Virus record (IMG/VR): IMGVR_UViG_3300035070_002905
Coordinates: 1 to 64,000 of that record
Length of the DNA stretch: 64,000 nucleotides
Strand: one strand, 5' to 3'
Source of the DNA: a virus
Shown: in pieces, positions 6,827 to 62,727 of the stretch
Position numbering within the stretch: position 1 is the first letter of the stretch
How the letters are laid out: the number at the start of each line of letters is the position of its first letter
Translations under genes and position numbers: made by a program
Notes under the pieces: generated by a model
Seen by the model: only the letters and a program-made list of their open reading frames with translations
Databases searched by the model: none
Told to the model about the DNA's origin: nothing

Positions 6827-6862
6827 AGGAATACTCCTCACCCTAACGATCTGGAGATCAAC

Positions 6863-23169: not shown

Positions 23170-24057
23170 ATGAAAAAGATCCTAATCGCTTCTGCTATCG
23201 CACTTGCAACTTCTCCGGCTTTCGCTTCAATCCAGGCTCCTGCTGCAGATCAATTTGTAGTATCTGGTGAACTGGCTGCTGGTGGTTACTCTAACGATGG
23301 TAAAGTGATCAACGATGGTGTAACTGGTATCGAGCTGGGCGTTAGCTATATGAACGGTCCGTTGGTAGGTTACGCTGAGATCGATGCTGATCTTGACAAT
23401 GACTTCGGCGTAGACCATACTGGTTCAGATGCAGTTGACTTGGACAAACTATGGTTCGGCTACCAGACAAAAGTTGGTACTCTATCATACGGTGTGGAAA
23501 ATGATACAGCCCTGGATAAGATCGATGGTGCTGGCGACCAGTCTATCGAGTTCGGCCTAAGCGCGGCGGATGCATCTGATGCATTCAACGTGGTGAAATG
23601 GGAGGGCGGCTACGGTCCTGTAGTATACGGCGTGTCTACTTCTGATACAGGTGATGACGCAGGTGATGACTTCACGTTCAACACTTACGCTGGTATCGAA
23701 GACGGCATTCTTAAGATGTACGTAGGTTACGAGCAACGTGACTCTGACTTCGAAGTTCTGACGGTTACTGGTAACGCTACTCTGGGCGATTTCGTCCTAG
23801 GTGCAAACGTATGGCGTGAAGGTGAAGACCTTGACAAAGACGGTTACTACGTATCTGCAGGCTACCAGATTAACGAACTGTACATCGGTGGTGGTGCTGG
23901 TCGTAAGAGCGAAGACGATAATGGCAACATCGAAGACGTGGCTAACATCGGCGTATCGTACGCGTTCACTGATCAGGTAGAAGGTCTATTCGACTACCAA
24001 CGTGAGATCGACGCAGAGAAGGACAACTTCTTCGCGAAAGTAGCTTACAATTTCTAA
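23170..24057 (+). CDS. phage-encoded outer-membrane porin-like protein
   Basis: 295 residues: Sec signal (MKKILIASAIALATSPAFA), then alternating amphipathic beta strands with many Gly/Asp/Tyr (GVSYMNGPLVGYAEIDADL, LWFGYQTKVGTLSYGVEND, YVSAGYQINELYIGGGAG) and a C-terminal strand ending in Phe (FFAKVAYNF), the recognition signal of the BAM machinery. This is the build of general Gram-negative porins of the marine Vibrio/Shewanella type. Phage porins (for example Lc of PA-2) replace host porins and change phage receptors. It has its own promoter and terminator, so it is a stand-alone unit. Its codon use is more highly optimised than that of the neighbours. Confidence 0.8.
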   Translation: MKKILIASAIALATSPAFASIQAPAADQFVVSGELAAGGYSNDGKVINDGVTGIELGVSYMNGPLVGYAEIDADLDNDFGVDHTGSDAVDLDKLWFGYQTKVGTLSYGVENDTALDKIDGAGDQSIEFGLSAADASDAFNVVKWEGGYGPVVYGVSTSDTGDDAGDDFTFNTYAGIEDGILKMYVGYEQRDSDFEVLTVTGNATLGDFVLGANVWREGEDLDKDGYYVSAGYQINELYIGGGAGRKSEDDNGNIEDVANIGVSYAFTDQVEGLFDYQREIDAEKDNFFAKVAYNF

Positions 24058-38974: not shown

Positions 38975-39488
38975 GGAGATAACTCTTCTATGCGAGATTG
39001 AATACGAGCGCCTGAATAAGCTCCCTAGGAAGACTCGATACCGTCCTCGTGGTACTAAGCCGGGAGATATACGCAATGATATCTTAGAGCAGTTCATAGA
39101 GCTTCTCGAGGATCTGTACTTCGAGGAGTTCGAGGACGAGCTCCCTGGGTACAATCGCATCGATAACTTCTCGTCTGTCTGGATGCCCCGCCTATGGGAT
39201 ATCTGCGAGGGTGGATGGGATCAGATGCACCCTAAGTATCTAACACCTGGTATCTGCTGCTGGGTGTTGACCATGAAGGAGAAGGGTAGGTCCTGGTACT
39301 GGATTGTAAATGAAATCTACGAGTGGGAAGCAGAACACCACTGGAACCTTAACGTTACTAAGAGGAAAGAAAATGTCAAGAACATGGCTAATGAGCGACC
39401 CGCACATCGAACATCAACGGATCGGCGTCTTCCGAGATATTCCCGAGGAGTATCTCGAGGCCGCGGACGGGGACGCGGTACTCGCTAA
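38946..39488 (+). CDS. hypothetical protein, 180 aa, extended over next gene
   Basis: Residues 1-140 are an acidic, aromatic globular protein (LLEDLYFEEFEDELPGYN; WYWIVNEIYEWEAEHHW). The last 38 residues are read from the start of the metallophosphoesterase gene in another frame and become Arg/Gly-rich and low-complexity (YSRGVSRGRGRGRGTR). The out-of-frame overlap is 116 bases, far longer than other overlaps in the window. The original stop may have been lost, leaving an extended tail. Confidence 0.6.
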   Translation: MTYDLEIAIEEITLLCEIEYERLNKLPRKTRYRPRGTKPGDIRNDILEQFIELLEDLYFEEFEDELPGYNRIDNFSSVWMPRLWDICEGGWDQMHPKYLTPGICCWVLTMKEKGRSWYWIVNEIYEWEAEHHWNLNVTKRKENVKNMANERPAHRTSTDRRLPRYSRGVSRGRGRGRGTR

Positions 39489-39945
39489 CACACTACATAT
39501 TCGAGCGGATGTATGCCGCTTCGTTCGTCCACGTGATAAGCTACTTATCCTAGGCGATTCTACCTGGTCCGAGAAGGGGATCCTAGAGATCGCCTCTTGG
39601 CCTGGCGATAAGGAGAACTTCGGCGGTAACCACGATGATCTACACGCCGAGATCTACCTTCAAGCCTTCAGCAATATCCGTGGCTGTAAGAAACTCCGTA
39701 AGGGTCGTGGCTGGGCGAGTCACTTCCCGGTACACGAGCAGGAGCTACGCGGCCACTTCTGTAACCACGGGCATGTACATAGCGCTACCATTCCGGACTG
39801 GCGTTATGTTAACCTGTGCTGTGACAACCTGTATAAGGAGACGGGATTCAACCTGATCTCCCTGGAAGATCTTGACGCCACGCACGCACACCGTCGTGAG
39901 CATAAGGATACTCGAATCATTCTAGCACCGAGGAAGGCGAGTTAA
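39373..39945 (+). CDS. calcineurin-like metallophosphoesterase
   Basis: 190 residues from ATG 39373 (AGGAAAG upstream). Metal motifs in order: WLMSDPHIEH (D-x-H), LILGDSTW (GD), NFGGNHDD (GNH), ASHFPVH and NHGHVHS (GHxH). Typical of small phage metallophosphoesterases related to YfcE-like enzymes; substrate could be RNA 2',3'-cyclic phosphate or nucleotides. It follows the RNA-repair genes, which fits but does not prove an RNA role. Confidence 0.82.
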   Translation: MSRTWLMSDPHIEHQRIGVFRDIPEEYLEAADGDAVLANTLHIRADVCRFVRPRDKLLILGDSTWSEKGILEIASWPGDKENFGGNHDDLHAEIYLQAFSNIRGCKKLRKGRGWASHFPVHEQELRGHFCNHGHVHSATIPDWRYVNLCCDNLYKETGFNLISLEDLDATHAHRREHKDTRIILAPRKAS

Positions 39946-40241
39946 CCAGCTAGTCTGCTACAATTATACAAAATGATACAGGAATGATACAGCCTAAAGC
40001 CTTGATTCTAAAGGGTTTACTGCTATTTGTAGCAATGTAGCAAAATAATCGGTAACTATACACATACTAATAGAGAGAGACATATAAGTTTTGCTAAAGT
40101 CTCTTATTAAATTATTATAAAGTATATACCAATATATTATGCTACAATGCTACATAGGGTGCTCAGGCCAGGTGGGATAAGGGCTGAGGCTGTATCATAC
40201 CCCTGCTACACGTTTGCTACAAATGATACAAGGAATGTGAC
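39946..40241 (+). repeat. AT-rich non-coding region with TGCTACA and ATGATACA repeats (origin or regulatory candidate)
   Basis: About 295 bases with no gene, unusual here. TGCTACA occurs at 39956, 40140, 40148, 40204 and 40215, and inverted (TGTAGCA) at 40028 and 40036. ATGATACA occurs at 39973, 39984 and 40223, and inverted at 40191. Pairs are spaced 8 or 11 bases apart. The centre (40042-40140) is very AT-rich. This iteron-plus-AT-rich layout is like replication origins or multi-operator regions. Confidence 0.6.
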
Positions 40242-40661
40242 ATGAAAGAATTTATACTGGACGGTATAGAAGAGATCCGAGATATTACCAGTGAACTACA
40301 CGCTAAGTACTTGGAGTATATCTCGGGAGAGGATCCTATCTGCGAACGCTTCTACGTCTTCCGCGCTGCTCCAGAAGACTGGAAGGAGCACGGCGGCTAT
40401 CTCCGTACCGGTGATGGAATACCTGGATGGGATCATAGGAATATGGACTGGGAGCGCTATCGTAATATCGACTGGGAGTGGATCATCGAGAATATGGCAG
40501 AGAGTAGCGGCAGTGGAGTAGACTGGGATTCTATTCCAGACGATCTCCAGGATAAAGACTGGCTGTACTCGGCTCTGCAGAGATTCCCAGATAGTTTCTT
40601 TGCGCAGGGCGTCGACGCCGTCCTTCAGAAGAACTTAGGCTCATACAAATACGACTGGTGA
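40242..40661 (+). CDS. hypothetical protein, 139 aa
   Basis: First gene after the repeat region; the upstream TACAAGGAATG supplies the RBS. Trp/Asp-rich (NMDWERYRNIDWEWIIENM; GVDWDSIPDDLQDKDWLY). No motif recognised. Confidence 0.65.
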   Translation: MKEFILDGIEEIRDITSELHAKYLEYISGEDPICERFYVFRAAPEDWKEHGGYLRTGDGIPGWDHRNMDWERYRNIDWEWIIENMAESSGSGVDWDSIPDDLQDKDWLYSALQRFPDSFFAQGVDAVLQKNLGSYKYDW

Positions 40662-40665
40662 TTTA

Positions 40666-41229
40666 ATGGCAAAGCTACACTACCACTACAGTGCAATGAA
40701 TGCAGGTAAGTCTTCGCACCTACTACAGGCTGCGTTTAACTACCAGGAGCGCGGCATGAAGGTCGCTCTATTTAACTTCCAAGGAGATACTCGTTTCGGA
40801 GAGGGCGTAATCGCCAGCCGTATCGGTCTGCAAATGCCGGCCGTACCGTTTAACGCCGAGACTGAATTCCTCGAGGAGATCTATAAGTTCGAAGACGTAG
40901 ACTGCATCTTCGTCGACGAGGCGCAGTTCCTGACGAAGGTTCAGGTAGAGTCCCTGACGAACCTAGTAGACCGTTACGATATTCCGGTAATGGCATACGG
41001 ACTTCGTACCGACTTCCTACTGGAACCATTCGAAGGCTCTAAGTATCTATTGGCCTGGGCCGATGAGATCAACGAGATTCCGTCTATCTGTACCTGCGGT
41101 CGTAAGGCCCGTGCAGTAGTTCGTATGGATGACGGTCGCGCGGTGACCTCTGGAGATCAGGTGGTCATCGGAGATTCGAACTACGTGAGTCTATGTCGTC
41201 GCTGCTATAAGGAGGCTATCAATGAGTAG
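40666..41229 (+). CDS. tdk: thymidine kinase
   Basis: 187 residues. P-loop MNAGKSSHL (11-19), DCIFVDEAQFL (85-95, DExQ), AYGLRTDF (substrate loop) and two zinc pairs CTCG (near 144) and CRRCYKE (near 178), all as in class II Tdk. It phosphorylates thymidine for phage DNA synthesis. Length matches family norms. Confidence 0.95.
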   Translation: MAKLHYHYSAMNAGKSSHLLQAAFNYQERGMKVALFNFQGDTRFGEGVIASRIGLQMPAVPFNAETEFLEEIYKFEDVDCIFVDEAQFLTKVQVESLTNLVDRYDIPVMAYGLRTDFLLEPFEGSKYLLAWADEINEIPSICTCGRKARAVVRMDDGRAVTSGDQVVIGDSNYVSLCRRCYKEAINE

Positions 41230-49796: not shown

Positions 49797-49817
49797 CGCT
49801 TACTGCTTCTTTTTTCG

Positions 49818-50348
49818 CTAATGTATACCAATCGACACCGACTTGAATATCACATCGGTTATCGACTGACCGTCGTTCTGTACTATGGCAAAGCGAATCT
49901 TATCGCTCGTGTTAAGTTCCAGCGAGAACTCTACCGACTGAGTGGAATCCCGGTTATTACGCGAGTGTTCGAACATGGTAGGCAGTCCGGCGATACGCCA
50001 GGTTGCTCCACCGTCTCTACTTACGAATGGCGTAATTGCCATCTCTCGGTTGGCCTGGGCTAGGTTAACGATAAACCTGCCGATTATGACGAATGGATTC
50101 ACGGAGAATCCACCTTGATATGTAACAGTGCCGTCTGTGGGATCTACAGTAAACTGATTCCCTTGGACTAGCGTGAACTCTGCAGGGTTGGCTACTTCAA
50201 TCTTAGAGTATAGACTGTAGGTATTCACCGATCCGCCCGAGGTAATCAGGTCGGTTATAGGTGTGGTTACTGCTGTATTCTCCCCGGTCAGCCCGAGGAT
50301 AGTTCGCATGTGTGGACTGGGTGCTCCGATGACCGTTGATAGAATCAT
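49818..50348 (-). CDS. virion protein, beta-rich, 176 aa
   Basis: Hydrophilic, Thr/Val/Ser-rich protein (GNQFTVDPTDGTVTYQGGFS; ITPFVSRDGGATWRIAGL). Its pattern resembles tail-fibre distal or connector jelly-roll-like domains. It ends the minus-strand block before the terminator and starts on the stop of the next gene (TAATG). Exact role unknown. Confidence 0.65.
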   Translation of the reverse strand: MILSTVIGAPSPHMRTILGLTGENTAVTTPITDLITSGGSVNTYSLYSKIEVANPAEFTLVQGNQFTVDPTDGTVTYQGGFSVNPFVIIGRFIVNLAQANREMAITPFVSRDGGATWRIAGLPTMFEHSRNNRDSTQSVEFSLELNTSDKIRFAIVQNDGQSITDVIFKSVSIGIH

Positions 50349-50653
50349 TACACCCCCGAATGAGTGGCCTTTAGGAATATAGGAGCTGCACCATCGTAAT
50401 CCGTTACGGTAACGAATAGCGGGCTCTTGAATCCTAGGACTACTTCAACTGAAAAATCTGTGGTATGTGTACCGCCGACAGGAAGTGTAGTCACAGGAGA
50501 TTTCTCTCCGTTTACTTCCAACTGCGTCTGCAGCTCTACTCGAGTGGTTGTACCCCAATCTCCTAGACAGGTCACGATCTCACGACCGGTAATCGAACTG
50601 TCCAACAACATGAATTCTGATACATCCCCTTCTATTTTTAGCTCTCTTGCCAT
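50348..50653 (-). CDS. small virion-type protein, 101 aa
   Basis: The start is placed at ATG 50653 (MARELKIEGDVSEF...), with GGAG 8-11 bases upstream; a longer frame to 50743 runs over a terminator and is rejected. Beta-rich (TTTRVELQTQLEVNGEKSPV), like phage tail accessory proteins. The terminator hairpin directly upstream implies that its mRNA begins nearby or by readthrough. Confidence 0.6.
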   Translation of the reverse strand: MARELKIEGDVSEFMLLDSSITGREIVTCLGDWGTTTRVELQTQLEVNGEKSPVTTLPVGGTHTTDFSVEVVLGFKSPLFVTVTDYDGAAPIFLKATHSGV

Positions 50654-50666
50654 ATGCTTTCTCCAT

Positions 50667-50692
50667 AAAAGAAAAGGCACCCGAAGGTGCCT
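50667..50692 (-). terminator. minus-strand terminator
   Basis: On the minus strand AGGCACC-TTCG-GGTGCCT (50692-50675) followed by TTTCTTTT. It lies between the end of the 754-residue spike gene and the next gene. Confidence 0.8.
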
Positions 50693-50741
50693 CGATGAGT
50701 GGCCAGCCCGAGGTAAAGGAGGAAATCCCCGAACCGGCGCC

Positions 50742-50756
50742 ATACTCTTATTTTAC
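50742..50756 (-). promoter_or_regulatory. TAAAATA promoter-like motif
   Basis: Minus-strand GTAAAATAAGAGTAT, eight bases after the spike stop. Followed about 55 bases later by a terminator, so it could produce a very short leader RNA before the small virion gene. Confidence 0.4.
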
Positions 50757-50760
50757 TACA

Positions 50761-53025
50761 CTATAAGGGGTATGCAGTAGGTGTACCGTCGGAAGCTACT
50801 CCTAATCGGTACCTGCTCCCGTTAGGTGCAAGCATATCTACTCCATCATACGCGAATATCTCTCGGAATCTATTAGTGACAGAGCCTAGATCGTATGCAT
50901 TATTAGAAGTAGGAGTTACGCTAGTAGTTTCTAGGTTAAGATTCCCGAATCTGCGGCCTGGGCTATAGTCTTGACTTGGGACGTCTGTAAATTTCACACC
51001 CCCTATGGCATTTGCGAATCCAGATACTCTAGCATTATTCTCCGAGTTGTACACTGTAATGAACACTGATGTGTTGGCCCGGAACTGTGCTATGGATACT
51101 TCCTGAGATACAACCTCGTCGGTGTGTAGATTGAATACCGTATCGAAACACTGATCTCTGGTTAGTGACTGAGTTACTAAATGGTTGACGGATCCGATTT
51201 GCTTAATATCAAATGTACACCTATAGGTAGCGAAGCCTTGGTCTGGACTAGATCCGTCATCTTTCCACGAGGTATTGTTATAGAGTGCACTTACCGTAGT
51301 CCCACCCGTCTGATGTTCATAAGTACCCTGGAAGCTTACATTAGTGCATATCCCTTGGATAAAGGAATTGATAGCTACTGTATTGGCATTGTATACATGA
51401 ACGTTAGAGATTACTGCGTTCGCACCTCGGTCGAAACGGATAGGCTGCCTGATGTTGTTGCCTGATACATTAGATATGGTACATGATTGAGAGTCGGCAG
51501 AGTGGGGGTACCCTGCTCCATTACCGAATATAGCTATTAGTTTCTCGCAGTCTGCGCCAACTACGTTAGATACTACTACGTTATTCTTTCTAGATCCGGT
51601 ATACCCATTAATAGCGAATACTGTATCGACCAGCGTACAGTACAATCCGTCTATGATAATATTGGCAGGTGCACCGGTATTACCCTCTACTATAACACCC
51701 CTACCTCCTCCACGTACAGCATCCCAGGATGCGTTGCGTACTACAGTATTATAGACACGTATTTCTGAAGTGTTATCACGAATGATAAACCCTGAGTTGG
51801 CTGCGAAATTACCACAGTCAATATCTAGATCGTGCACGTCGATATTCGTTGCATCCCACGCCATGAATACTGACTCGTATCCCGTAAGAATACCGGTAGC
51901 AATGAATGTACCTCTATTATAAAACTTAGTGTTACTACGGAACTCAAGTGCAGCCGATACATTATAAGTGCCTTCTGGAACAAATATATGTCCTGCCAGA
52001 TCTAGAGCAGCTTGAATAGCAGCTGTATCATCCGCTACACCATCACCTACCGCACCGAAGTCCTTGACGTTCACTACATCGGCAAAACGATCGCCTAGAG
52101 TACGGCTTACTGTAGCGCCGGTAGATGTAACTTCAGCTTCCGTAACGATGTTACTAATGATCTCTACGCGACGATTATACGTCAGAGTAGCTGCGGCACC
52201 GGCAGAGTCTACGGCACTAACCGTCAGAGTATCTCCGACTACATTCCAGCTCTGTACCGTGTAGGTATCAGTCCAGTTATTACCGTACTCCCAGAGGACT
52301 CCTGCAGTCTCTAGGATAGAGTGATTGCCAGTAGTACTTTCGACCATTACACCGTCGGCAAGCGTCCAGCGGTTCAGACGAAGTCCGTTAGCCAGCACCT
52401 GACGCTGACGTCCGGTAGCTTGAATCCAGTAAGCGTAGCTCTCTTGGGTATCACGGAAGCGATCGGATAGAGACTTAGTAGAAGTCCCATCGTTCACTAC
52501 CATCGAGTTCGGATCGACCCATGCCAGACGACCGCCCTGAACGCCCTCTAGGGTGGTTCCAGCCGGGAAGGTATGAGTTAGTCGGATAGACGTCGCAGAG
52601 ATCACTGAGTAGTCTACAGGAGTCTCTAGACGGCCTCGATCGACTAGTGGACCGGAAACGTATACTTCCAGACCGTCGGTCTCGATAGACGTGAAGACTA
52701 TATCAGTCTGTCCGTCGGTTAGCGTATGGCTTTCGCCCTGCGCCTTGTTGAATGGGATCTCGTTCGCCAGTGCACGGCCTACTAGAAGAAGCTCATCGCC
52801 TGCCGTAAGGGCAGTCGTTAGAGTAATCGTCGAGCCTGCAGCATCACGAGTATAATCCTGTGTCGCACCGAATAGTAGGCGGGCACCGTTTAGATAGACC
52901 TCTTCCGCCCCGTCGATGAACGTCAGGTCGAATACAGTCTCGCCGCCTACAGCTACAAACTGCTGGCGGTCGATGATAGAACCGGCGCTAGTATAGTCAC
53001 CGGTAATGTTACTTAGTCTTGCCAT
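50761..53025 (-). CDS. tail spike with pectate-lyase-like beta-helix
   Basis: 754 residues. An N-terminal connector (residues 1-300) contains repeated small beta domains (FVAVGGETVFDLTFIDGAEE; FNKAQGESHTLTDGQTDIVF). At about 315, VNVKDFGAVGDGVADDTAAIQAAL is the pectate-lyase superfamily entry motif, starting a right-handed beta-helix with repeated N-x-I turns (IIDGLYCT, NNVVVSNVVG). The C-terminus (NAYDLGSVTNRFREIFAYDGV) resembles trimeric tip domains. Such proteins recognise or degrade surface polysaccharide. Catalytic residues cannot be assigned by eye. Confidence 0.85.
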   Translation of the reverse strand: MARLSNITGDYTSAGSIIDRQQFVAVGGETVFDLTFIDGAEEVYLNGARLLFGATQDYTRDAAGSTITLTTALTAGDELLLVGRALANEIPFNKAQGESHTLTDGQTDIVFTSIETDGLEVYVSGPLVDRGRLETPVDYSVISATSIRLTHTFPAGTTLEGVQGGRLAWVDPNSMVVNDGTSTKSLSDRFRDTQESYAYWIQATGRQRQVLANGLRLNRWTLADGVMVESTTGNHSILETAGVLWEYGNNWTDTYTVQSWNVVGDTLTVSAVDSAGAAATLTYNRRVEIISNIVTEAEVTSTGATVSRTLGDRFADVVNVKDFGAVGDGVADDTAAIQAALDLAGHIFVPEGTYNVSAALEFRSNTKFYNRGTFIATGILTGYESVFMAWDATNIDVHDLDIDCGNFAANSGFIIRDNTSEIRVYNTVVRNASWDAVRGGGRGVIVEGNTGAPANIIIDGLYCTLVDTVFAINGYTGSRKNNVVVSNVVGADCEKLIAIFGNGAGYPHSADSQSCTISNVSGNNIRQPIRFDRGANAVISNVHVYNANTVAINSFIQGICTNVSFQGTYEHQTGGTTVSALYNNTSWKDDGSSPDQGFATYRCTFDIKQIGSVNHLVTQSLTRDQCFDTVFNLHTDEVVSQEVSIAQFRANTSVFITVYNSENNARVSGFANAIGGVKFTDVPSQDYSPGRRFGNLNLETTSVTPTSNNAYDLGSVTNRFREIFAYDGVDMLAPNGSRYRLGVASDGTPTAYPL

Positions 53026-53060
53026 TTAGGAATTCCTTATGTTATGAGGTCGCGATCCTC

Positions 53061-53075
53061 GTATACATATTTTAG
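53061..53075 (-). promoter_or_regulatory. TAAAATA-N4-TAC promoter-like motif
   Basis: Minus-strand CTAAAATATGTATAC, between the terminator of the S74 fibre gene and the spike gene at 53025. Matches the common pattern before several fibre units. Confidence 0.55.
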
Positions 53076-53081
53076 CAGAAA

Positions 53082-53098
53082 GCCCTCGCGAGGAGGGC
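53082..53098 (-). terminator. minus-strand terminator
   Basis: GCCCTC-ctcgc-GAGGGC stem (53082-53098), followed on the minus strand by TTTCTGC. The hairpin and its flanking GGGTTTA-type sequence recur at 58471, suggesting a shared 3' cassette of fibre genes. Confidence 0.75.
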
Positions 53099-53105
53099 TT
53101 TGGGT

Positions 53106-54569
53106 TTATATACCGAGATGCTCTTTGATACTTGCTATATCTTTAGCTTGACGTTGGATTATCTCCCCTTGAATACCGATGAATTCCTGGTACCCTATAG
53201 TATATACGTCTTCGCCGCCGTTAACTGAGTGATGTTGTAGTCCTGCAAAGTCCACGTTGTGTCGTAGCATGGCCTCCTCTACTTGCTGAGCTATAGCTCC
53301 TATATGGTACCTAGAACCCGACCTAGAGCCGTCTTTATCTACTGCGGTTACAGTGCCATCGGCATCCGTATCCGCGTATGACTCTCGATAATCCATACGG
53401 TATTGTCTCCATTCTATATCCATGAAGAATGCTATATGATCGTCTGTTAAAGACTTAATATCAATCTTATCGCGCCTATCAGAACGATCTTGAACTGCAC
53501 CATACGCGTATGTCGTAGTACCAGTAGTACCTAGTTGTATTTGATCATTACCAGTTACAGTAGAAGCCTGACCTATAGCCGTAGTTCTCGAAAACGCATG
53601 ATTCCTATTAGCCAGGTATCCTAGAGAAGAATTATACGTTCCAGTCAGACCCTCACACGCCTGTCGACCGAAGCCGGTATTGCCCGTCCCTACTCCTACT
53701 CCATATCCTGCACGATATCCCATCAAAGTAAGGTTGCTAGAGTCTATGGCAGAAGAGTCCCCTCTATATGCCGCCTGGTATCCTACTGCCGTATTATTAA
53801 TAGCGTTACTGTTTTCCAAGACTCTAGAGCCTATTGCAACGTTGAAATCAGAAGCAGTCGTGGCATTTCCGAGGGAGTAATCCCCTACCGCAACTTGAGA
53901 GTCTCCGTCAGATCCCAGACCTGCATGATATCCTACGGCAGTCTGGTTAGCGCCGTTACTCTGGTATCCAGATTGCTTACCTATAGATACTTTATTATTA
54001 CCGGTGGCCTGTTCACCTGCCCTCCACCCAATACCTACAGATTCCTCAGAGGTCGTAGTGTTGCCTGAATAGGATCCTACCCAAACACCTCTACCTCCGT
54101 TAAGATGGTTCCCCGTCTCTGCACCTATGGCAACAGTAGAAGATGCTCCCGTAGAGTCGTGCAGAGCTAGTCTGCCTACTCCAACTGAGTAACCAGAGTC
54201 AAAAGTACTAGAGGATATATCTGCATCTTGACCTGCCTGAATACCAACGAACACCCCATTCTCCCCAGTGGATCGATATCCTGCACGATATCCCACTGCA
54301 GTCTTCTGATCCCCTGAAGTTCTATCGGATACTCCGAATAGTCCGTTGTTTACTTGCCCACCATCGGTAGCGCTATATGCCACTGGAGTAGGGTATTCAG
54401 TCGGGTCGATGTACACATAATTCCCATATAAAGCATGTCCCGGCACGCTGTTTCTATAGAGAGTCCCGGGGTTTACAGTGGAATCTACTGTTACTACTCC
54501 ACCCCAAGTTATTCCGAATGAGGAGTCCCCTTCGTCAATCATTCGGTTATTTACTTTTGTTAAAGCCAT
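53106..54569 (-). CDS. tail fibre with C-terminal S74 intramolecular chaperone
   Basis: 487 residues. The N-terminus MALTKVNNRMIDEGDS is a common fibre attachment start. Residues 80-330 are YadA-head-like repeats (AVGYRAG, VGIQAG, VGRLAL, AIGAETG) of about 14-20 residues, suited to a trimeric left-handed beta-roll. The C-terminus has the S74 peptidase/chaperone domain: SDRRDKIDIK near 375 (SDxRxK, catalytic Ser-Lys) and YHIGAIAQQVEEA near 435. The chaperone cleaves itself off after trimer folding. Confidence 0.88.
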   Translation of the reverse strand: MALTKVNNRMIDEGDSSFGITWGGVVTVDSTVNPGTLYRNSVPGHALYGNYVYIDPTEYPTPVAYSATDGGQVNNGLFGVSDRTSGDQKTAVGYRAGYRSTGENGVFVGIQAGQDADISSSTFDSGYSVGVGRLALHDSTGASSTVAIGAETGNHLNGGRGVWVGSYSGNTTTSEESVGIGWRAGEQATGNNKVSIGKQSGYQSNGANQTAVGYHAGLGSDGDSQVAVGDYSLGNATTASDFNVAIGSRVLENSNAINNTAVGYQAAYRGDSSAIDSSNLTLMGYRAGYGVGVGTGNTGFGRQACEGLTGTYNSSLGYLANRNHAFSRTTAIGQASTVTGNDQIQLGTTGTTTYAYGAVQDRSDRRDKIDIKSLTDDHIAFFMDIEWRQYRMDYRESYADTDADGTVTAVDKDGSRSGSRYHIGAIAQQVEEAMLRHNVDFAGLQHHSVNGGEDVYTIGYQEFIGIQGEIIQRQAKDIASIKEHLGI

Positions 54570-54579
54570 TTGTTACTCC

Positions 54580-56775
54580 TTAATCTACTATCTTACCTAC
54601 ACCGAGTATACGCCACACACCCAGGTCGTTATACAGAGTGGCAGATGAATGTGCCCCTGCCTGATTACCTACGGTAAGACCTGTAGATCCAAAATCTTGG
54701 GTAGGAGTATCAGGTAGGCTTACTTGCCAGCTATATCCTATTAAATGTACTATGCGACCGTACTCAACTCCGTCTACGTCTATTTCACATCCAGTCTTAG
54801 CACTAGATCCACCCGTCAATCGATACCTATCGATACCTTGAGTTAGGGATACTACCTGATCATTACTAGTCAGCGATAGAGTGGAATCGTGGAATACTGG
54901 AGGTATTCCACCAGACCCACGTATCGTGTTAGTACCACCATCATATTGGATAGTAGAGGTGTCGTAGAGTCTTACTGGCTCGGTATCTGCAGTAGTAGCC
55001 TGACAATTTGTAACTCTTAACGTAGAACCGCCGCGCAGATATATGATCCTACTGAAAGTAGAGTTATTCATATATAGAGTAGAGCCTTCATTAACTTCTG
55101 CAGGTTCTAAGTCGATATCAAACCAAGTCATAGTCATAGTACCGCCACTAGATACTTCTATACCGTCATTTATCTGTGAACGTACCGTCGAACTTAATCC
55201 GGCACATCTAACCGTCCCTCCTGCACCTACAAATACTCCTAAGCTGCCTGCGCCTGACGAGAACACGTGATTTAACTGAGTTGCGTCAGTCTGTACCATT
55301 TGGATCAACCCGTATAGGCACTGTACGTTTCTGATTAAAGCGCCGCGCAAAGTTGAGTTAGATATAGTAATTACATCACCGTCTGTTAGAGTAACGATAT
55401 TATAATCACAGTTACGTATCTTAGAGTCCTTGGTGATCTCAAGTTGGCCGTTTGACTCAGTGTAGGCTCCGTATGTCGCGAACCCACGCCCATCGATGAT
55501 TGTCTTAAATACGTGAACGTAAGTATCAGTACGATGTGCAACCAGTAATCCAGAAGACTTATTTACTCCGTTACTCTGTATGGTTATACCGTTTATACCG
55601 ATGTTACCCTTCTGAATATATACACCGTATTTGTAATCGGAAGTAGTCTCTATGATTACATTTTCAGGGTTAGTCAGATTGCCACGTATAGTTATTGCAC
55701 CGTCTAACTCATCTCCGTTACTAGATGACCTGTATGCTGTAACCTTACCATATCCATATAGAATGGCAGCCCTAGCTTGACTTGATGCAGGCTCTACGCT
55801 TTCATTGTATAGACCATCGGCTAGTTGAATAGTCTGAGGATGATATATGATTTCAGGGATAGAGTTCCACGCCATTTGAACGGTCTTAAAGGGGTTGGCC
55901 TGAGATCCATCCCCTGCAGTATCGCTACCTGTAGGAGATACATACCAAGTCACTTCTTCAGTAGTCCTTCCTGCCTTTTGAGTAATATCGTATGTCCAAT
56001 TCTCCATGGTACGAGGAGCTATAGACCCTGCAGCTACTGCCAGAGCCTCCGAAACGTCGGTACCCGGTAGCTCGCCTGGAGACACTGGACGGTAGAACGT
56101 TACGCTTACCTGCGCGCCTGCAGGAGGAGCCTCGGTGAACGAGATCTGTCCCGGAGCGGTAGTATAGCTGTCTACTGGAATCTGCACGACGCCGTCTACC
56201 GTTACCAGGAAGCTGGTCGCCGGAGATGAGTCTGCATGCGGTGCGTCGAATGTCGTCTTCGTGCCATCACCTAGTTGTACCGGTTGAAGTACTGGAAGCT
56301 GCTGCTCGGGTACATCTTGGCTAAGACCGGCGAAGCGGCTGTACGGACGGTAGGTTAGTGCACCTGAACCATCTCGTACCTGTACGTCTAGACGATCTCC
56401 TACCGGAGTACCGATTGATACTACCGTGAACGACTCGGTCGCCTCATCGTCCGGCCACCACAGTTGACCGAGGTGGAAGAATGTCGAGGTCTTGCCTGCC
56501 AGATCTACCTGCCAGACACCGGTAGCGTCCTTAGAGAATGGAGCGATTGTGGCACCTACTACGCCGACGGTAGATTTACGCCCGGTCAACGCCTCTTGAT
56601 CGTCCATCTTAGGAACGAATACGTTGCCCGATGGAAGCGGGAAGCCTTCGCTTAGGAAGTCTCCTGTAGCATCGACTACTACGCCGTCGATCAGGGCTGG
56701 GTCCAGAACTCGCACTGGAGTCCCGGTAAGAATACTCGCCAGCTGCAGCTGCGCAAGTGTATTGAATACCTTCAT
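54580..56775 (-). CDS. tail spike with beta-helix domain, 731 aa
   Basis: N-terminal half is a connector with a linker module (LGDGTKTTFDAP...YTTAPGQISFTEAPP...VTFYRPV, about 167-230) that is shared with the spike at 60715. From about 275, TWYVSPTGSDTAGDGSQANPFKTVQ (the DUF1565-type start) leads into a beta-helix with many N/G turns. Lacks the KDFGAVGDG motif of the other spikes, so the receptor-binding part is of separate origin. Ten bases separate it from the S74 fibre gene, so the two are co-transcribed. Confidence 0.83.
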   Translation of the reverse strand: MKVFNTLAQLQLASILTGTPVRVLDPALIDGVVVDATGDFLSEGFPLPSGNVFVPKMDDQEALTGRKSTVGVVGATIAPFSKDATGVWQVDLAGKTSTFFHLGQLWWPDDEATESFTVVSIGTPVGDRLDVQVRDGSGALTYRPYSRFAGLSQDVPEQQLPVLQPVQLGDGTKTTFDAPHADSSPATSFLVTVDGVVQIPVDSYTTAPGQISFTEAPPAGAQVSVTFYRPVSPGELPGTDVSEALAVAAGSIAPRTMENWTYDITQKAGRTTEEVTWYVSPTGSDTAGDGSQANPFKTVQMAWNSIPEIIYHPQTIQLADGLYNESVEPASSQARAAILYGYGKVTAYRSSSNGDELDGAITIRGNLTNPENVIIETTSDYKYGVYIQKGNIGINGITIQSNGVNKSSGLLVAHRTDTYVHVFKTIIDGRGFATYGAYTESNGQLEITKDSKIRNCDYNIVTLTDGDVITISNSTLRGALIRNVQCLYGLIQMVQTDATQLNHVFSSGAGSLGVFVGAGGTVRCAGLSSTVRSQINDGIEVSSGGTMTMTWFDIDLEPAEVNEGSTLYMNNSTFSRIIYLRGGSTLRVTNCQATTADTEPVRLYDTSTIQYDGGTNTIRGSGGIPPVFHDSTLSLTSNDQVVSLTQGIDRYRLTGGSSAKTGCEIDVDGVEYGRIVHLIGYSWQVSLPDTPTQDFGSTGLTVGNQAGAHSSATLYNDLGVWRILGVGKIVD

Positions 56776-56810
56776 GATATCTCCTTGTTAAGCCGGATGC
56801 CTCCGGTTTG

Positions 56811-56824
56811 TATTTATATTTTAG
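56811..56824 (-). promoter_or_regulatory. late-type promoter motif
   Basis: Minus-strand CTAAAATATAAATAC contains both TAAAATA and the exact T4 late octamer TATAAATA. It lies 36-49 bases before the spike ATG. A small CCGGA-ggca-TCCGG hairpin lies in the leader. Confidence 0.65.
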
Positions 56825-56844
56825 AGGCACCAGGATATTTGCAA

Positions 56845-58428
56845 TTAGGCGGCTATAGGACCGAAACCTTTCCACGTACCAGGAGTACCTGCGGTAACGC
56901 ATACCCAACCTTCATACCCACCAGCAGTGACTACTGAAGGGTCTGCATATACCTTATCCCCTACTTTCCACGTTGCCGCAGATCCTGGATTACCTACATC
57001 TGGCGGGTTAAAGTAGAAACCATTGACTATCTGTGCTATGGTCGAGGATCCGTAGTAGGCGAACTGCATATCCTGAGGCAGAGCGTTAGTATCTACTACT
57101 ACTCGCTGCCCGAACTGCTCCCCTTCTGCACTTATAAAAGCTCTACACGCAGTAGAGTTAAACACGGTATTACCTGATATAATACCGAATGAGTTAGCTG
57201 GTAGTGCAGGAGCTCCTGATGCGGTCTGAATGATATGGTTAGTACCACTCCCTAGACCGCATCTCTCGAATGTGTTATTAGAAACATTAAAACTTATAGC
57301 ATTCATGCGTATACCTGCACCTTCTATATTAGATAAAAGATTACCGGATATACTCAGGGTCTTTTGCGTCAGAGATCTGTTGTATAGGATCCCCGCACTA
57401 GATCCTGCATTAGAGTTGATAATAATGTTATCATCAATATTAACGTACTCTCCGCTCGATACTGCTATACCATAGCCGTCATATCCCTCTACAGTGTTAC
57501 CTACAACCTTACAGAATCCTACGTCTTCCATCAGGCATTCTATGCCGTACACACCCGACCCTTTGACCATATTACCTTCTATCAAGTAATCTCGCATATC
57601 CTTAACCCAGATGCCTGATCCGGCAGTAGTCTCTATGAAGTTATTTCGGATTATATGATTGCCATTGGCGTTTAATACCGGAGCGTTACCTGCGTCGAAT
57701 CGTATCCCTCTAGAGCTTGCAGGATTGACTGCATCACCTACTACATTGGTAATATGATTACCTTCTACATGAATCCTCTCAAAGATGTGTCCTACACCTT
57801 CGATGTTAATTCCGCCAGTACCCCAGATATTTACTATAGTATTATCCTGTACCCATATATCCGTGCCTGCAGATATAGCCACTCCATTACCGAAGTTGCC
57901 TATGGGATCGCTAGAGTCACCTATATTATAAATAGTGTTTCCTCGTATACGTACATCTGAAGGTGCCACCCCTACTGTCCCATATCCACAGTAGATACCA
58001 ACTCGATATGCGTCGTGGACTATGTTGTTCTCTATTAATATACGCTTAGATCCAGTGGTCACGTGTATAGGGAATGGGTCTCCTGATGTATAGGAGTACG
58101 CGTCTTTGTTTCCGTCAAACTCCAGCATAGTTATAGTTACGTCTGAAACTGTATCCATACGAAACTGGGCTCTAGATGTAGTAGCCCGTAAGATAGCACC
58201 TTTACCGTATAGACAAGTTAGGCTGGGTACAGCTATCGGATCTGAGTACATGTATACTCCAGGGGGAAATTTTACATGCCCACCGCTACTCACCGCCGCC
58301 TGAATAGCCGCAGTATCATCCGTTACGCCATCTCCTACGGCGCCAAAGTCTTTCACAGAGACGATTCCAGTTGACTCCGGTGTCAGTGCCTGGTAGCCTC
58401 TATCTGCTAGATCACGTGATCTTGTCAT
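56845..58428 (-). CDS. tail spike, pectate-lyase-like beta-helix, 527 aa
   Basis: Short attachment start (MTRSRDLADRGYQALTPEST), then at about 25 VSVKDFGAVGDGVTDDTAAIQ begins a right-handed beta-helix. Coils repeat with N-x-I-x-N patterns (RGNTIYNIGD, VEGNHITNVVGD, IDDNIIINSNAG). The C-terminus WKVGDKVYADPSVVTAGGYEG is a small carbohydrate-binding-like end. The shortest spike of the block. Confidence 0.85.
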   Translation of the reverse strand: MTRSRDLADRGYQALTPESTGIVSVKDFGAVGDGVTDDTAAIQAAVSSGGHVKFPPGVYMYSDPIAVPSLTCLYGKGAILRATTSRAQFRMDTVSDVTITMLEFDGNKDAYSYTSGDPFPIHVTTGSKRILIENNIVHDAYRVGIYCGYGTVGVAPSDVRIRGNTIYNIGDSSDPIGNFGNGVAISAGTDIWVQDNTIVNIWGTGGINIEGVGHIFERIHVEGNHITNVVGDAVNPASSRGIRFDAGNAPVLNANGNHIIRNNFIETTAGSGIWVKDMRDYLIEGNMVKGSGVYGIECLMEDVGFCKVVGNTVEGYDGYGIAVSSGEYVNIDDNIIINSNAGSSAGILYNRSLTQKTLSISGNLLSNIEGAGIRMNAISFNVSNNTFERCGLGSGTNHIIQTASGAPALPANSFGIISGNTVFNSTACRAFISAEGEQFGQRVVVDTNALPQDMQFAYYGSSTIAQIVNGFYFNPPDVGNPGSAATWKVGDKVYADPSVVTAGGYEGWVCVTAGTPGTWKGFGPIAA

Positions 58429-58450
58429 TTTGTTTCTCCTTATGTTCAGT

Positions 58451-58464
58451 ATACCTTATTTTAC
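58451..58464 (-). promoter_or_regulatory. TAAAATA-N4-TAC promoter-like motif
   Basis: Minus-strand GTAAAATAAGGTATAC upstream of the 527-residue spike, just downstream of a terminator. Confidence 0.5.
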
Positions 58465-58470
58465 GAAAAA

Positions 58471-58487
58471 GCCCTCACGAGGAGGGC
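58471..58487 (-). terminator. minus-strand terminator
   Basis: GCCCTC-ctcgt-GAGGGC stem (58487-58471) followed on the minus strand by TTTTTCG. Near-duplicate of the terminator at 53082. Confidence 0.78.
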
Positions 58488-58494
58488 TTGGGGT

Positions 58495-58545
58495 TTAGTC
58501 GACGGACGCGCCGTCAATCATTCTGTTATTTCCTTTTGTTAACAT
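58495..58545 (-). pseudogene. relic of a tail-fibre N-terminus
   Basis: Minus-strand ATG...TAA encodes MLTKGNNRMIDGASVD, matching the fibre start MALTKVNNRMID at 54569 and the common phage continuation DGASVNVKDFGAVGDG. The reading frame stops after 16 codons, just where the receptor-binding part should start, and is followed by a fibre-type terminator. It has its own RBS (GGAGCAATAA). Best explained as the remains of a deleted fibre gene. Confidence 0.65.
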
Positions 58546-58555
58546 TTATTGCTCC

Positions 58556-60715
58556 TTAATCAACTCTGCCGGCAATACGTTTAATCTTAAAAACTGAACC
58601 AGCCTTTAAAACACAATTCGTACTTTGGGTGACGACTTCTAGTCGAACAGTGTTATTCGGGTTGATCTGCCTACGTGTTGATAGCGTAATACTCTGATAG
58701 TCGGCATCAGCCGGGTTTGCGTAAGTACGAGTTAAGTTAGAGTTTACCGATCCAATCTTTAACTCCGCCCATCGTAGGCCGTCACCTAGGAATGAACCAT
58801 TAAACTCCACTTCGTACGTACTAACCATATCTCCATTATCCATGCCTTGAGTGTTGCCCCAAGGAGAGTTGGTTTCTACGGTATTGAACGTTATGATATT
58901 AGCTCCACTCGCTAGTGGAATATCTGTATTACCTACGTAACAAACAGCGTATGGTTCATTAAAAGAGTCGAAGTTAATGTTGGCGAATCCATCGGAATCA
59001 ATACGGTCTGGTATCAGAGGTTGACCAGATGAGACGTATGCATTACGGAAGTCTACTTTAGCGAAGCCCGTGATACTGAAGTATACGCTAGAGTTATCAC
59101 CTCCTGGCAAGGAACAACCTTCGAACGATACATAAGTTCCATCAATATCGTACAATTTCTGATTTGAACTGTTGTCGTAACCAAACAACTTCAGGTTCAT
59201 ACCATTAACTTCCATTGTCTCAGTACCTCTAGCATAAAACAATTTTGCAACAACAACTGATGCGTCAGTAAATAAACTGTTCTCTGCTCCACACGATGTA
59301 AGTGTTGTACCTAAGCAAGTGTTGAAACTGTAAGCATATGGAGTGTCACCTGAAGTCACGCCCCAACCCCAATCATCTACTGTAGCATTTGTAAATGCTG
59401 AGTAAGATAGTCCGAAGAAGCTCCAACCATTTAACACACGAGACGCACCACAGTTGTTAACTGTCAAGCTTGTACCTGAAGCAGTCTTTGTACCGATAGT
59501 GGCGTGGTTGATAATGTGATGAGCATTACGGAAGTCTATTGACTCTAATAGTGTTCTGTAGATATCGTTTGTATGAATACCCGCATTAACATATTGGAAC
59601 TCAATATCACTCAGGTGTGAATGAGCGAAAGATGGCCCATAGATACCGCTAATAGTGTAGTCATCAAACAACGTATCTGGTGTATGACCCTTAACACGGA
59701 AGTCTCGGAATGTCAAACCCCATTGAGCAGTGGCATTAGCTAAGCCTCGGCCTTCATCTAAATCGGCACCATCAGTGGCACTTGCTAGTCGACGAGAAGC
59801 AGCGATCATAAAGATACAGTCTTCATTGTAAGTGTAGCCACGAGTACCTGCTCCGTTTAACGCAGAGAATGTAGCATTAAGCTGTAGGCTGTAGTTATCC
59901 GCGCCTTGGAAGATTGTTGCGTACTTACCAGCACCCTGTATAACGATACCATCACATTCGTACATCTGAATAGCATTAGAGACGATATAGATTCCGGCGG
60001 GGAAGAAAAGCGTGTTACCGTAAGTGATGTTCCCTTTAGTTGTAATGAAATCCACTGCCGCCTGAATAGCCGCAGTATCATCCGTTACGCCATCACCTAC
60101 TGCACCGAAGTCCTTGACGTTCACTACGTCTGCCGCTCGGTCTGCTAGAGTACGTGCAGTAGTTCCTCCGGTCGCCGTCGCATAGCCTAGACTAACGTCT
60201 GTACCTTCAGCTACATCGGTAGTTACCGGTTTGAAGTACGTTACGTCGATCTCGGCTGCAGCTGCAGGAGCTGTAGTAAAGATGATCTGTCCGGGCGCCG
60301 TAGTATAATCAGTACCCGCACGCGAGACTAGCCCGTCGACTACCACGAAGAACGCCTGTGGAAGTTCGGCTGAAGTCCCCGGAGCATCGAAGGTAGTGGT
60401 CGTACCGTCACCGGTCTGACGCGGCTGGATTAGCGGTGTAGCAGTAGCTGCAGTGATCTCACGTGCCCATAGGCCATTACCTAGCTGATAGTCTGCTACA
60501 GCCGTCTGGATTAAATAATCGCTAAGCGGTGAGATTACTTTAACGTAATCCCCTAGTCCTAGCGCCGTGCTGCCTACCATCGCGGCAACATTGTCGAATA
60601 CATTTGTGATTTGACGTTTAGAAGACGTCCACTTTATGCCGTCGTAGGCGTAAGTGAATTGTCCTTCAGTGTACGTCTGTCCAACCACTGGGTTGGACGG
60701 AAACGTTAGTGCCAT
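58556..60715 (-). CDS. tail spike, pectate-lyase-like beta-helix, 719 aa
   Basis: Residues 1-95 (MALTFPSNPVVGQTYTEGQFTYAYDG...) are a fibre attachment domain with a close relative in the next spike (MAISFPTAPIVGQVYEYGDYRYTWDG). The GDGTTTTFDAP...YTTAPGQIIFTTAP...VTYFKPV linker follows. VNVKDFGAVGDGVTDDTAAIQAAV near 205 opens a beta-helix. The remaining two thirds use different codons (more TTT, CCA, GTT) from the N-terminal part. Likely a swapped receptor-binding module. Confidence 0.85.
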   Translation of the reverse strand: MALTFPSNPVVGQTYTEGQFTYAYDGIKWTSSKRQITNVFDNVAAMVGSTALGLGDYVKVISPLSDYLIQTAVADYQLGNGLWAREITAATATPLIQPRQTGDGTTTTFDAPGTSAELPQAFFVVVDGLVSRAGTDYTTAPGQIIFTTAPAAAAEIDVTYFKPVTTDVAEGTDVSLGYATATGGTTARTLADRAADVVNVKDFGAVGDGVTDDTAAIQAAVDFITTKGNITYGNTLFFPAGIYIVSNAIQMYECDGIVIQGAGKYATIFQGADNYSLQLNATFSALNGAGTRGYTYNEDCIFMIAASRRLASATDGADLDEGRGLANATAQWGLTFRDFRVKGHTPDTLFDDYTISGIYGPSFAHSHLSDIEFQYVNAGIHTNDIYRTLLESIDFRNAHHIINHATIGTKTASGTSLTVNNCGASRVLNGWSFFGLSYSAFTNATVDDWGWGVTSGDTPYAYSFNTCLGTTLTSCGAENSLFTDASVVVAKLFYARGTETMEVNGMNLKLFGYDNSSNQKLYDIDGTYVSFEGCSLPGGDNSSVYFSITGFAKVDFRNAYVSSGQPLIPDRIDSDGFANINFDSFNEPYAVCYVGNTDIPLASGANIITFNTVETNSPWGNTQGMDNGDMVSTYEVEFNGSFLGDGLRWAELKIGSVNSNLTRTYANPADADYQSITLSTRRQINPNNTVRLEVVTQSTNCVLKAGSVFKIKRIAGRVD

Positions 60716-60743
60716 TTGTTACTCCTTTGGTTAAGTTCTCTGT

Positions 60744-62633
60744 TTATCTAGCCCTATAGGAAAAAGAGCCGCCAATTATCACGGTCGGTGATGCAGGTAT
60801 ATCTGCATCACTTAGAAGTGTCTGACCGTCAGGTTTGTATAATGTAATTACAGCGCCCCCGCCAGTTAAAGACATAACTCCACTCGTACTCGCAACGCCA
60901 CCAGTAAAGTTTTGATATCTAACTGAGGCATGCGCGTCCTCATCCACATTAATAGGGAATGGCAATCCCTGTATAGTACAAGATCCGGTCTGGGATCCAA
61001 CTGCGTTAACGTACATAGAAAAGTTAACTGTAACCATGTCATCAATTCTACTCCATGTTCCGCTTTGCTTAACATAAGCAATTCCAGAACTAGATCCCCC
61101 AATAAACAACTCAGGGGTCCATTCACCTTGTTGTATCGTTGTTATTAGGTTATCACGTCGATAGTCATGTAATTCAGGGATGATTTCAGTATAGAGGCCA
61201 TTCGGGCCATCATAGGTGTACTTAGACGTACTTGGCTTTGTTACATACATTGACGGAAATCTAAAATAGGTCGGCGGGTTAGTCCAATGAATTTTTGCAT
61301 CATCCTTTAATATCACGGATTCTTTAAAATAATCCACTGGAGATACCAATGGTAAGGGCCTATCCATCTCGCCACTGATAAATGTTATATCATCACCAGC
61401 CATTGCACTAACCATATACACGGGGTGCGTTGGAGTCTGTCTGTTTAAGTCTTGCCACTTGAAAAATGATCTGTGATTTACTACGGTTACTTTGTTATTT
61501 CCCTCGAAGTTGAAATAAATACCCTTCTCGACTGGATAGTTTGCATCAAGAGGGGTTAGCGTAAATCCTTCATTCCCACAGGATACCAGTGTTAAACACG
61601 TTGCATTTCTAAATGTAAAAGCCGCCTTATATGGGATATCACATCCGCAACCAACTATCTCAGAATATGTATGACCGAATATGTATCCGCCTAGGCCACA
61701 CCAAAGGGCCTCACATCCTTTGAAGTTTGTTGTTGTACCGCTCTGTGTCTCTATCGTTCCATACCCCTGAAAGCTTGTAACCTCAGATAACCATGGCTGC
61801 TTCATAAATAGCATCGTGCCTGTATTGTGGCAGCATACGTCCCTAATAAAAACGCTGTCTCCAGTTGAATAGTAAACGCCGTACGTATTCTGTTGCGAGT
61901 CTAATCCACCACCGCTTATATTTGGGTACCCAGTAGATATGTTCCCTCTGAGTGCGATATTTTCTAGTCTTTGATTTCCCGAGTGATATCTAGTTAAATC
62001 AGAAGGGTAATCAGGATGACGCTGATTATTGTGCATTTGAATTATCGAGTCGTTACCAGCTTCATCAAGGTTATTGGTACTTTTCCATATCGTACAAACC
62101 CACTCAGTTGCATCAATAGTTGGAGTCTGGCTACCAATTAGTGATTTATAAGGAGGAAGAATGATCGGATCGTGAATTTCGTAAAGACCCTCTGGAACAA
62201 AGGTAACAGCATGATTCGAGATGCAAGCTCTAAACGCAGGTTCCCAATTATCCCCCACCCTCGAATTCTCATAATCTAAAACATTTCCGATATCTGAAAA
62301 TCTATCGTAAAGTGTTCTAGGCGTATTACTACCTGCCGCCGTCACTAGGATCTCGTTACCTACTGCGTCGACCAGACCCTGAGGAGCATCTTCGACCCAT
62401 TGGCCTTGAGAAGTCCCTTCGTTCACGTGCCAGATATACGTCAGGCCGTTAGAATCGTCAAACCACTGGAGTCCCGGCTCGGGTGCTGCCGGTGGAGTAG
62501 CGCTCTGGATTTTAACGGCAGAGCTACCGTATTTAATAACTGATGTCCACTTAGTACCGTCCCACGTGTAACGGTAGTCTCCATACTCGTAGACCTGCCC
62601 TACGATCGGGGCGGTTGGGAAGCTAATAGCCAT
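60744..62633 (-). CDS. tail spike, 629 aa, foreign-composition C-terminal part
   Basis: Residues 1-100 form the attachment domain (PIVGQVYEYGDYRYTWDGTKW, then LTYIWHVNEGTSQGQWVED). The remainder is a beta-helix type spike (YEIHDPIILPPYKSLIGS; NTYGVYYSTGDSVFIRDVCCHN) without the KDFGAVGDG entry motif. From about 62300 down, codons shift to TTT, TTA, AAA and ATA, unlike neighbours, so this part was probably gained recently. The last 130 residues look like a separate tip domain. Confidence 0.82.
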   Translation of the reverse strand: MAISFPTAPIVGQVYEYGDYRYTWDGTKWTSVIKYGSSAVKIQSATPPAAPEPGLQWFDDSNGLTYIWHVNEGTSQGQWVEDAPQGLVDAVGNEILVTAAGSNTPRTLYDRFSDIGNVLDYENSRVGDNWEPAFRACISNHAVTFVPEGLYEIHDPIILPPYKSLIGSQTPTIDATEWVCTIWKSTNNLDEAGNDSIIQMHNNQRHPDYPSDLTRYHSGNQRLENIALRGNISTGYPNISGGGLDSQQNTYGVYYSTGDSVFIRDVCCHNTGTMLFMKQPWLSEVTSFQGYGTIETQSGTTTNFKGCEALWCGLGGYIFGHTYSEIVGCGCDIPYKAAFTFRNATCLTLVSCGNEGFTLTPLDANYPVEKGIYFNFEGNNKVTVVNHRSFFKWQDLNRQTPTHPVYMVSAMAGDDITFISGEMDRPLPLVSPVDYFKESVILKDDAKIHWTNPPTYFRFPSMYVTKPSTSKYTYDGPNGLYTEIIPELHDYRRDNLITTIQQGEWTPELFIGGSSSGIAYVKQSGTWSRIDDMVTVNFSMYVNAVGSQTGSCTIQGLPFPINVDEDAHASVRYQNFTGGVASTSGVMSLTGGGAVITLYKPDGQTLLSDADIPASPTVIIGGSFSYRAR

Positions 62634-62679
62634 ATATGACTCTCCTTATGTTATGATTGCCGGGTGATCAATCCGGGTG

Positions 62680-62693
62680 TACTACTATTTTAG
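62680..62693 (-). promoter_or_regulatory. TAAAATA-N4-TAC promoter-like motif
   Basis: Minus-strand CTAAAATAGTAGTAC, between a terminator and the spike gene at 62633. Confidence 0.55.
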
Positions 62694-62695
62694 GC

Positions 62696-62720: not shown

Positions 62721-62727
62721 CTTGTTG

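Follow-up and report, generated by a model that had tools for sequence, protein, structure and literature searches.

What does a short intergenic stretch crowded with heptamer repeats do in a viral genome? The locus in question occupies positions 39946-40241 of the window, that is, the whole stretch of 64,000 nucleotides analysed here, which belongs to a viral record of 172,110 bp (IMGVR_UViG_3300035070_002905). A preliminary description, made from the letters, had proposed it as a replication origin or a cluster of operators.

Site layout and copies within one record

Eleven TGMTACA sites, in both orientations, are found within 275 bp of this element. Seven of them read TGCTACA/TGTAGCA (39956+, 40028-, 40036-, 40140+, 40148+, 40204+ and 40215+) and four read TGATACA/TGTATCA (39974+, 39985+, 40191- and 40224+), each of the latter being embedded in ATGATACA/TGTATCAT. 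In 200 dinucleotide shuffles of the window the densest 275 bp held 1.64 sites on average and 3 at most, versus the 11 observed. The GC content is 0.361 over the whole element and 0.216 in its core (40043-40139), versus 0.483 in the whole window, and short repeats beside an AT-rich stretch, the arrangement typical of iteron origins, are thus present at this locus. The element is bordered by a phosphoesterase gene on one side and, on the other, by an ORF of 139 aa with a thymidine kinase gene behind it. Its features are the following:

39946-40241, no strand: whole intergenic element, copy 1 of 3, candidate replication origin
39956-39962, + strand: iteron 1, left half, TGCTACA, offset 0
39974-39980, + strand: iteron 2, left half, TGATACA
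39985-39991, + strand: iteron 3, left half, TGATACA
39992-40027, no strand: 36-base gap from site 3 to site 4; imperfect, moderate stem-loop (z -1.9)
40028-40034, - strand: iteron 4, left-half inner pair, TGTAGCA on the + strand
40036-40042, - strand: iteron 5, left-half inner pair, 8-base step
40043-40139, no strand: AT-rich core, GC 0.216; candidate DNA unwinding element
40140-40146, + strand: right-half inner pair, first site
40148-40154, + strand: right-half inner pair, second site, 8-base step
40155-40190, no strand: right-half 36-base gap; fold without significance (z +0.3)
40191-40197, - strand: iteron past the right-half gap, TGTATCA on the + strand
40204-40230, + strand: three outer iterons (40204, 40215, 40224), oriented opposite to their counterparts in copies 2 and 3

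The preliminary description had the two classes of sites and their numbers right, and its spacings of 8 bases (40028/40036 and 40140/40148) and 11 bases (39974/39985 and 40204/40215), as well as the very AT-rich core, were likewise confirmed. Two of its statements hold in part. The element is the longest stretch of the window free of ORFs when these are counted from 40 aa in six frames (296 bp, followed by 232 bp at the tRNA cluster), but not with a cut-off of 60 aa, at which two stretches exceed it in length; and the 11-base spacing, thought to place sites on one face of the helix, does occur but is not constant, the constant distances being the 8-base step of the inner pairs and the 36-base gap. 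Finally, a spread of the repeats over many intergenic regions had been named as evidence against the proposal: TGMTACA occurs 74 times in the whole record and forms only three dense clusters, at 39946-40241, 91413-91735 (copy 2) and 170909-171231 (copy 3), so that two further places, and not many, were found and the cluster is not alone. A 22-bp match at 168010-168031 lies inside the primase gene, looks like chance and was discarded.

In copies 2 and 3 the sites stand at identical offsets (0, 18, 30, 73 and 81, then 235, 243, 286, 298 and 316), with one extra site in each copy, and the layout is a palindrome, since reversal maps each offset x to 316-x. Each half-element begins with three outer sites facing in, continues with 36 bases and an inner pair 8 bases apart, and reaches the core, beyond which the mirror image follows. 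The core is AT-rich and 147 bp long in copies 2 and 3, and 50 bp shorter in copy 1. The left half of copy 1 agrees with the other two copies within 1 bp and its right outer sites are flipped, an asymmetry that neither of the other two copies shows. The 36-base gap between the third and the fourth site keeps its length in every one of the six half-elements that these three copies comprise.

Elsewhere in the window, a 295-aa ORF (23170-24057) resembles, by eye, an outer-membrane porin with a signal peptide and has no PHROG match; such a gene would be an unusual find in a phage. A second ORF, of 314 aa (14130-15074), is RlmN/radical-SAM-like, judging by a CxxxCxxC motif found by eye.

Position, number and concerted change of the copies in related phages

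No match to window positions 30001-54000 was returned by megablast against 50,697 phage records. At the protein level, the Vibrio phages D69, D181 and D148 encode proteins that share 62% amino acid identity with a 935-aa primase encoded near copy 3, and Salmonella phage Arash carries a relative that is 33% identical. Phage D69 contains three copies of the element, at 67, 125 and 185 kb, each matching the query on both strands, with a similar layout and partly different heptamers (TGTTGCA, GTTACA). They adjoin the same genes as here, namely the terminase, the phosphoesterase/polynucleotide kinase (PNK) and the exonuclease-ligase genes, and the neighbouring products are 48% (phosphoesterase), 49% (PNK) and 59% (TerL, the terminase in L008) identical in amino acids, the D69 ligase being 42% identical to the ligase cut at the end of our record. 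By their sequence surroundings, the three positions are orthologous between the two genomes, and the persistence of the three copies at their places, in spite of the divergence of the surrounding DNA, argues for the copies having a function. Small hypothetical coding sequences, possibly over-annotation, are annotated atop the elements in D69 (185267-185568 and 67494-67592) and in Arash (66238-66405, 66432-66938 and 100204-100371). The Arash lineage may also carry its own multisubunit RNA polymerase, since two beta-type subunits and two RpoS-like sigma factors are annotated in that genome (130093-134670 and 139441-141261).

To count copies, each record was searched with its own element unless another query is named; own-element searches left out G010 to G014. 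Arash (180.8 kb) has five copies, at intervals of 39.7, 33.8, 38.4, 34.8 and 34.2 kb, and with its element as query five are found in G008 and five in G009, viral contigs of 182.6 kb each that resemble Arash. Four copies are present in G003 (184.9 kb), three in G002 (181.4 kb), three in the 117-kb fragment G001 (queried with the G002 element) and two in G007 (168.2 kb). The Arash element had no match in six of eight other records and the element of locus L065, searched over ten records, had none in G008, G009 and G010; on the basis of these sequence searches, therefore, the modules are lineage-specific and each lineage needs its own query.

The copies tend to be evenly spaced. Under the assumption of circular genomes of the stated length, the probability of a minimum interval as large as that observed is 2e-5 for Arash, 0.0053 for D69, 0.055 for G002, 0.0092 for G003 and 0.093 for G007, and these five values, from one Arash-type record and four others in tests that are not fully independent, combine to 1.1e-7 (Fisher). 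Outside this set, which excludes G000 (the window's record), G008 and G009, the values are 3.5e-5 for G008 and 3e-4 for G009; the fragment G001 was left out of the spacing tests. The copies in the window's own record are not significantly even (P 0.08-0.10). One of its intervals is only a minimum, because the record seems incomplete, with its last ligase gene cut and no continuation at the record start.

Among 15 aligned copies from Arash, G008 and G009, identity within a genome amounts to 82-95%, 88-97% and 84-90%, respectively, versus a mean of 75.9% between genomes, where one pair reaches 92.4%. The core is nearly invariant inside each of these genomes and different between them. As judged from these alignments, the copies evolve in concert within a genome, and a common trans-acting reader, gene conversion, or both would produce such a change.

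Heptamer arrays behind genes for primase-helicases

At the sequence level, the N-terminal half of the 935-aa protein is a DnaG primase (2au3, E 4e-36), its C-terminal half yields only a P-loop match, and no Pfam helicase family was matched. An AlphaFold2 model (mean pLDDT 81.9, pTM 0.48) resembles the SCCmec helicase Cch (5dgk; Foldseek E 1.9e-13, Z 22.2 over 463 residues, 368-932) and SaPIBov1 Rep (8tch; Z 18.4, residues 370-935), next to DnaG itself (2au3; Z 22.9), with MCM helicases behind Cch and Rep at Z about 14-15. The predicted model thus has the Cch/SaPIbov1-Rep helicase fold including its C-terminal domain. In the last ~90 residues, predicted helices are followed by two long strands, which we read as winged-helix-like. 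In prediction, then, the protein is a DnaG-type primase fused to a Cch/SaPIbov1-Rep-like helicase.

Copy 3 lies 595 bp beyond this gene, with an exonuclease gene between them, and neither copy 1 nor copy 2 is near it. A protein-guided scan yielded 24 viral loci that encode a protein related to the 935-aa one, which make 27 with the window's record, D69 and Arash; near-duplicates among them, judged by equal positions and 7-mers, are L066/L067, L068/L069 and L081/L085. In each flank, up to 5 kb long, the densest 7-mer was compared with 60 shuffles. On the 3' side an array beyond all 60 shuffles was found in 14 of 26 testable loci, on the 5' side in none of the 26. Several of the 26 have no such array in the 3' flank, and three more come close to the threshold (L085, equalled by 1 of 60 shuffles; D69, by 2; L066, by 3). 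The Arash array (TGTAACC) starts 5.5 kb beyond the primase, thus outside the flanks compared. The heptamers vary by lineage, TGCACCA, TGGACCA, TGTCCAA, ACTGGAC, CTTGCCC and AGTTCCC being among them. Arrays 3' of related primases were noted in L077 (8712-9060), L078 (8001-8310), L074 (9039-9420) and L084 (8153-8440), with TGCACCA/GCACCAC 11-12 times, TGGACCA nine times and CTTGCCC eight times; going by their sequences, these are probably the origins of other phages, which have heptamers of their own. A further candidate 7-mer, GACTTTA in six copies, was noticed in Klebsiella phage 6991.

TGTAGCA arrays turned up at 14 viral loci in two scans based on the DNA pattern only. At 11 of these loci (five from one family and two from one phage) a primase/helicase-type gene (Prim-Pol, PriCT_2, AAA_25, DUF3987, DUF5906/VapE-like or DnaG) has its 3' end at the array or no more than about 110 bp from it, L013 and L019 having been judged by their likeness to L012/L015 and L022; the other three are L010, L011 and L021. 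In L014, a methyltransferase-like ORF recognised by eye (6351-7310) comes with QLQQLQQLERLQQ repeats in a row. Of the seven named phages whose primases are only distant relatives (L025-L031), none has a TGTAGCA array. The pattern was rejected as a lone diagnostic: it also occurs at 14 loci of genome contigs, in 13 Bacteroidota MAGs and one Peregrinibacteria MAG, and no primase-like protein was seen near nine of these (ORF starts read by eye; L049-L052 and L057 excluded), where the TGTAGCA palindromes look like something else. Six of the Bacteroidota MAG loci (L048, L054, L055, L056, L059 and L061) show intergenic inverted repeats of the form GCTACAGTGCTACAGTT...AACTGTAGCACTGTAGC, with no primase seen nearby, and these are perhaps a chromosomal repeat family.

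A candidate multi-copy iteron origin and its known counterparts

Of the two functions in the preliminary description, the origin fits much better than the operator, because a mirror-symmetric module stands at three conserved places, relatives have two to five fairly even copies, the iterons change in concert between phages, and arrays of this kind lie 3' of primase/Rep-Cch-like helicase genes. We therefore consider, with a probability of roughly 0.77, that this phage has three Rep-dependent iteron replication origins, each specified by its sequence, and that the element is one of them. In the mechanism that we propose, the C-terminal domain of the primase-helicase would bind the TGMTACA iterons, the 36-base gap may fix how far apart the bound subunits stand, and hexamers, assembled on the half-elements that face each other, would melt the AT-rich core. 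Each hexamer would then encircle one strand, the fused primase would lay primers and two forks would leave. Should the copies be origins, two to five of them, spaced out, would cut the copying time of a genome of 170-187 kb.

GC skew, suggested earlier as a check, does not point to this locus: the cumulative skew turns at ~50 kb, together with a strand switch, and not near the element at 40 kb, and in Arash it does not turn at any of the five elements. A minus-strand block of tail-fibre-like genes (window 49800-63700) coincides with the turn at ~50 kb.

A hairpin was considered as the functional core and set aside, the folds being weak in most halves, and hence the mechanism is not built on it. 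The left half of copy 2 resembles a strong stem-loop or a terminator, and a z below -3 was reached in just two of eight halves folded (-3.5 and -4.3), so that no large stem-loop is conserved among them; neither was one found in 15 Arash-type halves (mean z -0.85). Rfam gave no match in L007 and L008 at gathering scores, nor in window positions 39000-41000 at E up to 1.

Three other explanations were weighed. The arrays could be centromere- or condensation-like sites, or sites of packaging or segregation, bound by a DNA-organising protein and spaced evenly for folding or packaging. Even spacing and concerted evolution would suit such sites too, copy 2 and one D69 copy are located near a terminase gene, and in Arash, G008 and G009 all five copies have a single orientation per genome. 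However, a single site is all that packaging would need, smaller phage contigs too have the arrays 3' of primase-helicase genes, and an AT-rich core combined with a SaPI-Rep-like helicase suggests melting and helicase loading, which makes this explanation unlikely. Even less probable is a cluster of operators or promoters at which a phage regulator would control the operon starting at 40242. The intergenic place directly upstream of a + strand gene, the two site orientations and the helical spacing are what such a cluster would show, but promoter-like matches number 2 versus 1.8 expected (the patterns may not be the phage's own types), and there are no terminator-like matches. Moreover, the orientation of the element is independent of that of the genes in Arash, where copies pointing one way lie among - strand genes (26, 66 and 100 kb), among + strand genes (173 kb) and between both (138 kb), and a regulator leaves the even spacing and the association with primase-helicases unexplained. 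Lastly, a miniature inverted-repeat mobile element, or a selfish repeat copying itself around phage genomes, would account for the inverted layout with sites at the ends and for several alike copies per genome, but is hardly credible given three positions orthologous in our record and D69 despite a divergence beyond the reach of megablast, copies that are few and spaced, and ends at which no target-site duplication was seen by eye.

Returning to the origin reading, we propose with moderate confidence that a large tailed-phage lineage has multiplied a SaPI-Rep-like origin into two to five fairly even, concertedly evolving copies, with one DnaG-primase/Rep-type helicase reading them all. The genome would then consist of replicons of similar size, and the specificities of module and initiator would change together; the repeats named for such a change across lineages are TGTAGCA, TGTAACC, GTCCA and others. 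If this is true, it would be the phage, sequence-specified counterpart of evenly spaced origins. The number and places of origins could be read from the sequence in any relative, because the origins would be one recognisable module, and both selection for evenly spaced origins in large phage genomes and the way in which one initiator and several distant sites change specificity together would become directly testable. Furthermore, the Cch/SaPI-Rep-like loader, which until now has been examined in staphylococcal islands, would gain a natural multi-origin setting in deposited phages (D69 and Arash).

The closest counterparts are the origins of SaPIbov1 Rep and SCCmec Cch-Cch2, where short iterons follow an initiator helicase gene, as arrays do at 14 of the 26 primase-helicase loci compared here, and whose helicases the predicted fold matches. 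Iteron arrays behind the initiator helicase are known from both SaPI and SCCmec, and SaPI Rep recognises downstream iterons through its C-terminal domain, as given in the available passages of PMC7581432. According to the same passages, the SaPIbov1 and SaPI5 primases are of the AEP type, whereas here the primase is of the DnaG/TOPRIM type and fused to the helicase. SaPI and SCCmec have one origin per element, in contrast to two to five copies over 168-187 kb, and their iteron sequences differ from those found here.

Besides ori, phage P4 has a second site, crr. P4 is likened to our case by description only: its alpha protein combines, as is predicted here, primase and initiator helicase, the primase being TOPRIM-type and a winged-helix domain binding the origin repeats (excerpts of PMC4234260). 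Unlike in P4, the copies here are spaced around a large genome and the helicase model resembles Cch/SaPIbov1 Rep. The excerpts of PMC4234260 also describe the origin of pRN1 and the proposed origin of Bordetella phage BIP-1 as a stem-loop behind the primase-helicase gene, a cis element directly 3' of that gene, as at part of the loci here; as presented in them, it is a single large stem-loop without iterons, whereas in our elements iterons are conserved and a stem-loop is not. RSF1010 oriV, in the same source, is comparable in having iterons that an initiator recognises, as is proposed here, along with separate primase sites (ssi stem-loops); it relies on three separate proteins instead of one fused protein, and uses stem-loops, which are not conserved here. 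For pChV1 of Chromobacterium violaceum, TGTAGCAAGTTGCTACACT inverted repeats are listed and no origin is named in the available part of PMC5871888.

More than one origin has precedents among phages, T4 being the foremost. T4, with a genome of ~170 kb, would resemble our phages in having several origins (oriA-oriG, at least five of them active early), which, as far as the available text of PMC3016281 goes, have no common motif and include two R-loop origins, while here all copies are one sequence module. A literature search covering the best matches among open-access papers, with most subscription papers outside it, returned no report of this module, of origins in Arash or of evenly spaced iteron origins in phages. 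Iteron origins behind a helicase gene are thus already known, and what would be new is the presence of several copies of one iteron origin, evenly spaced, in a phage.
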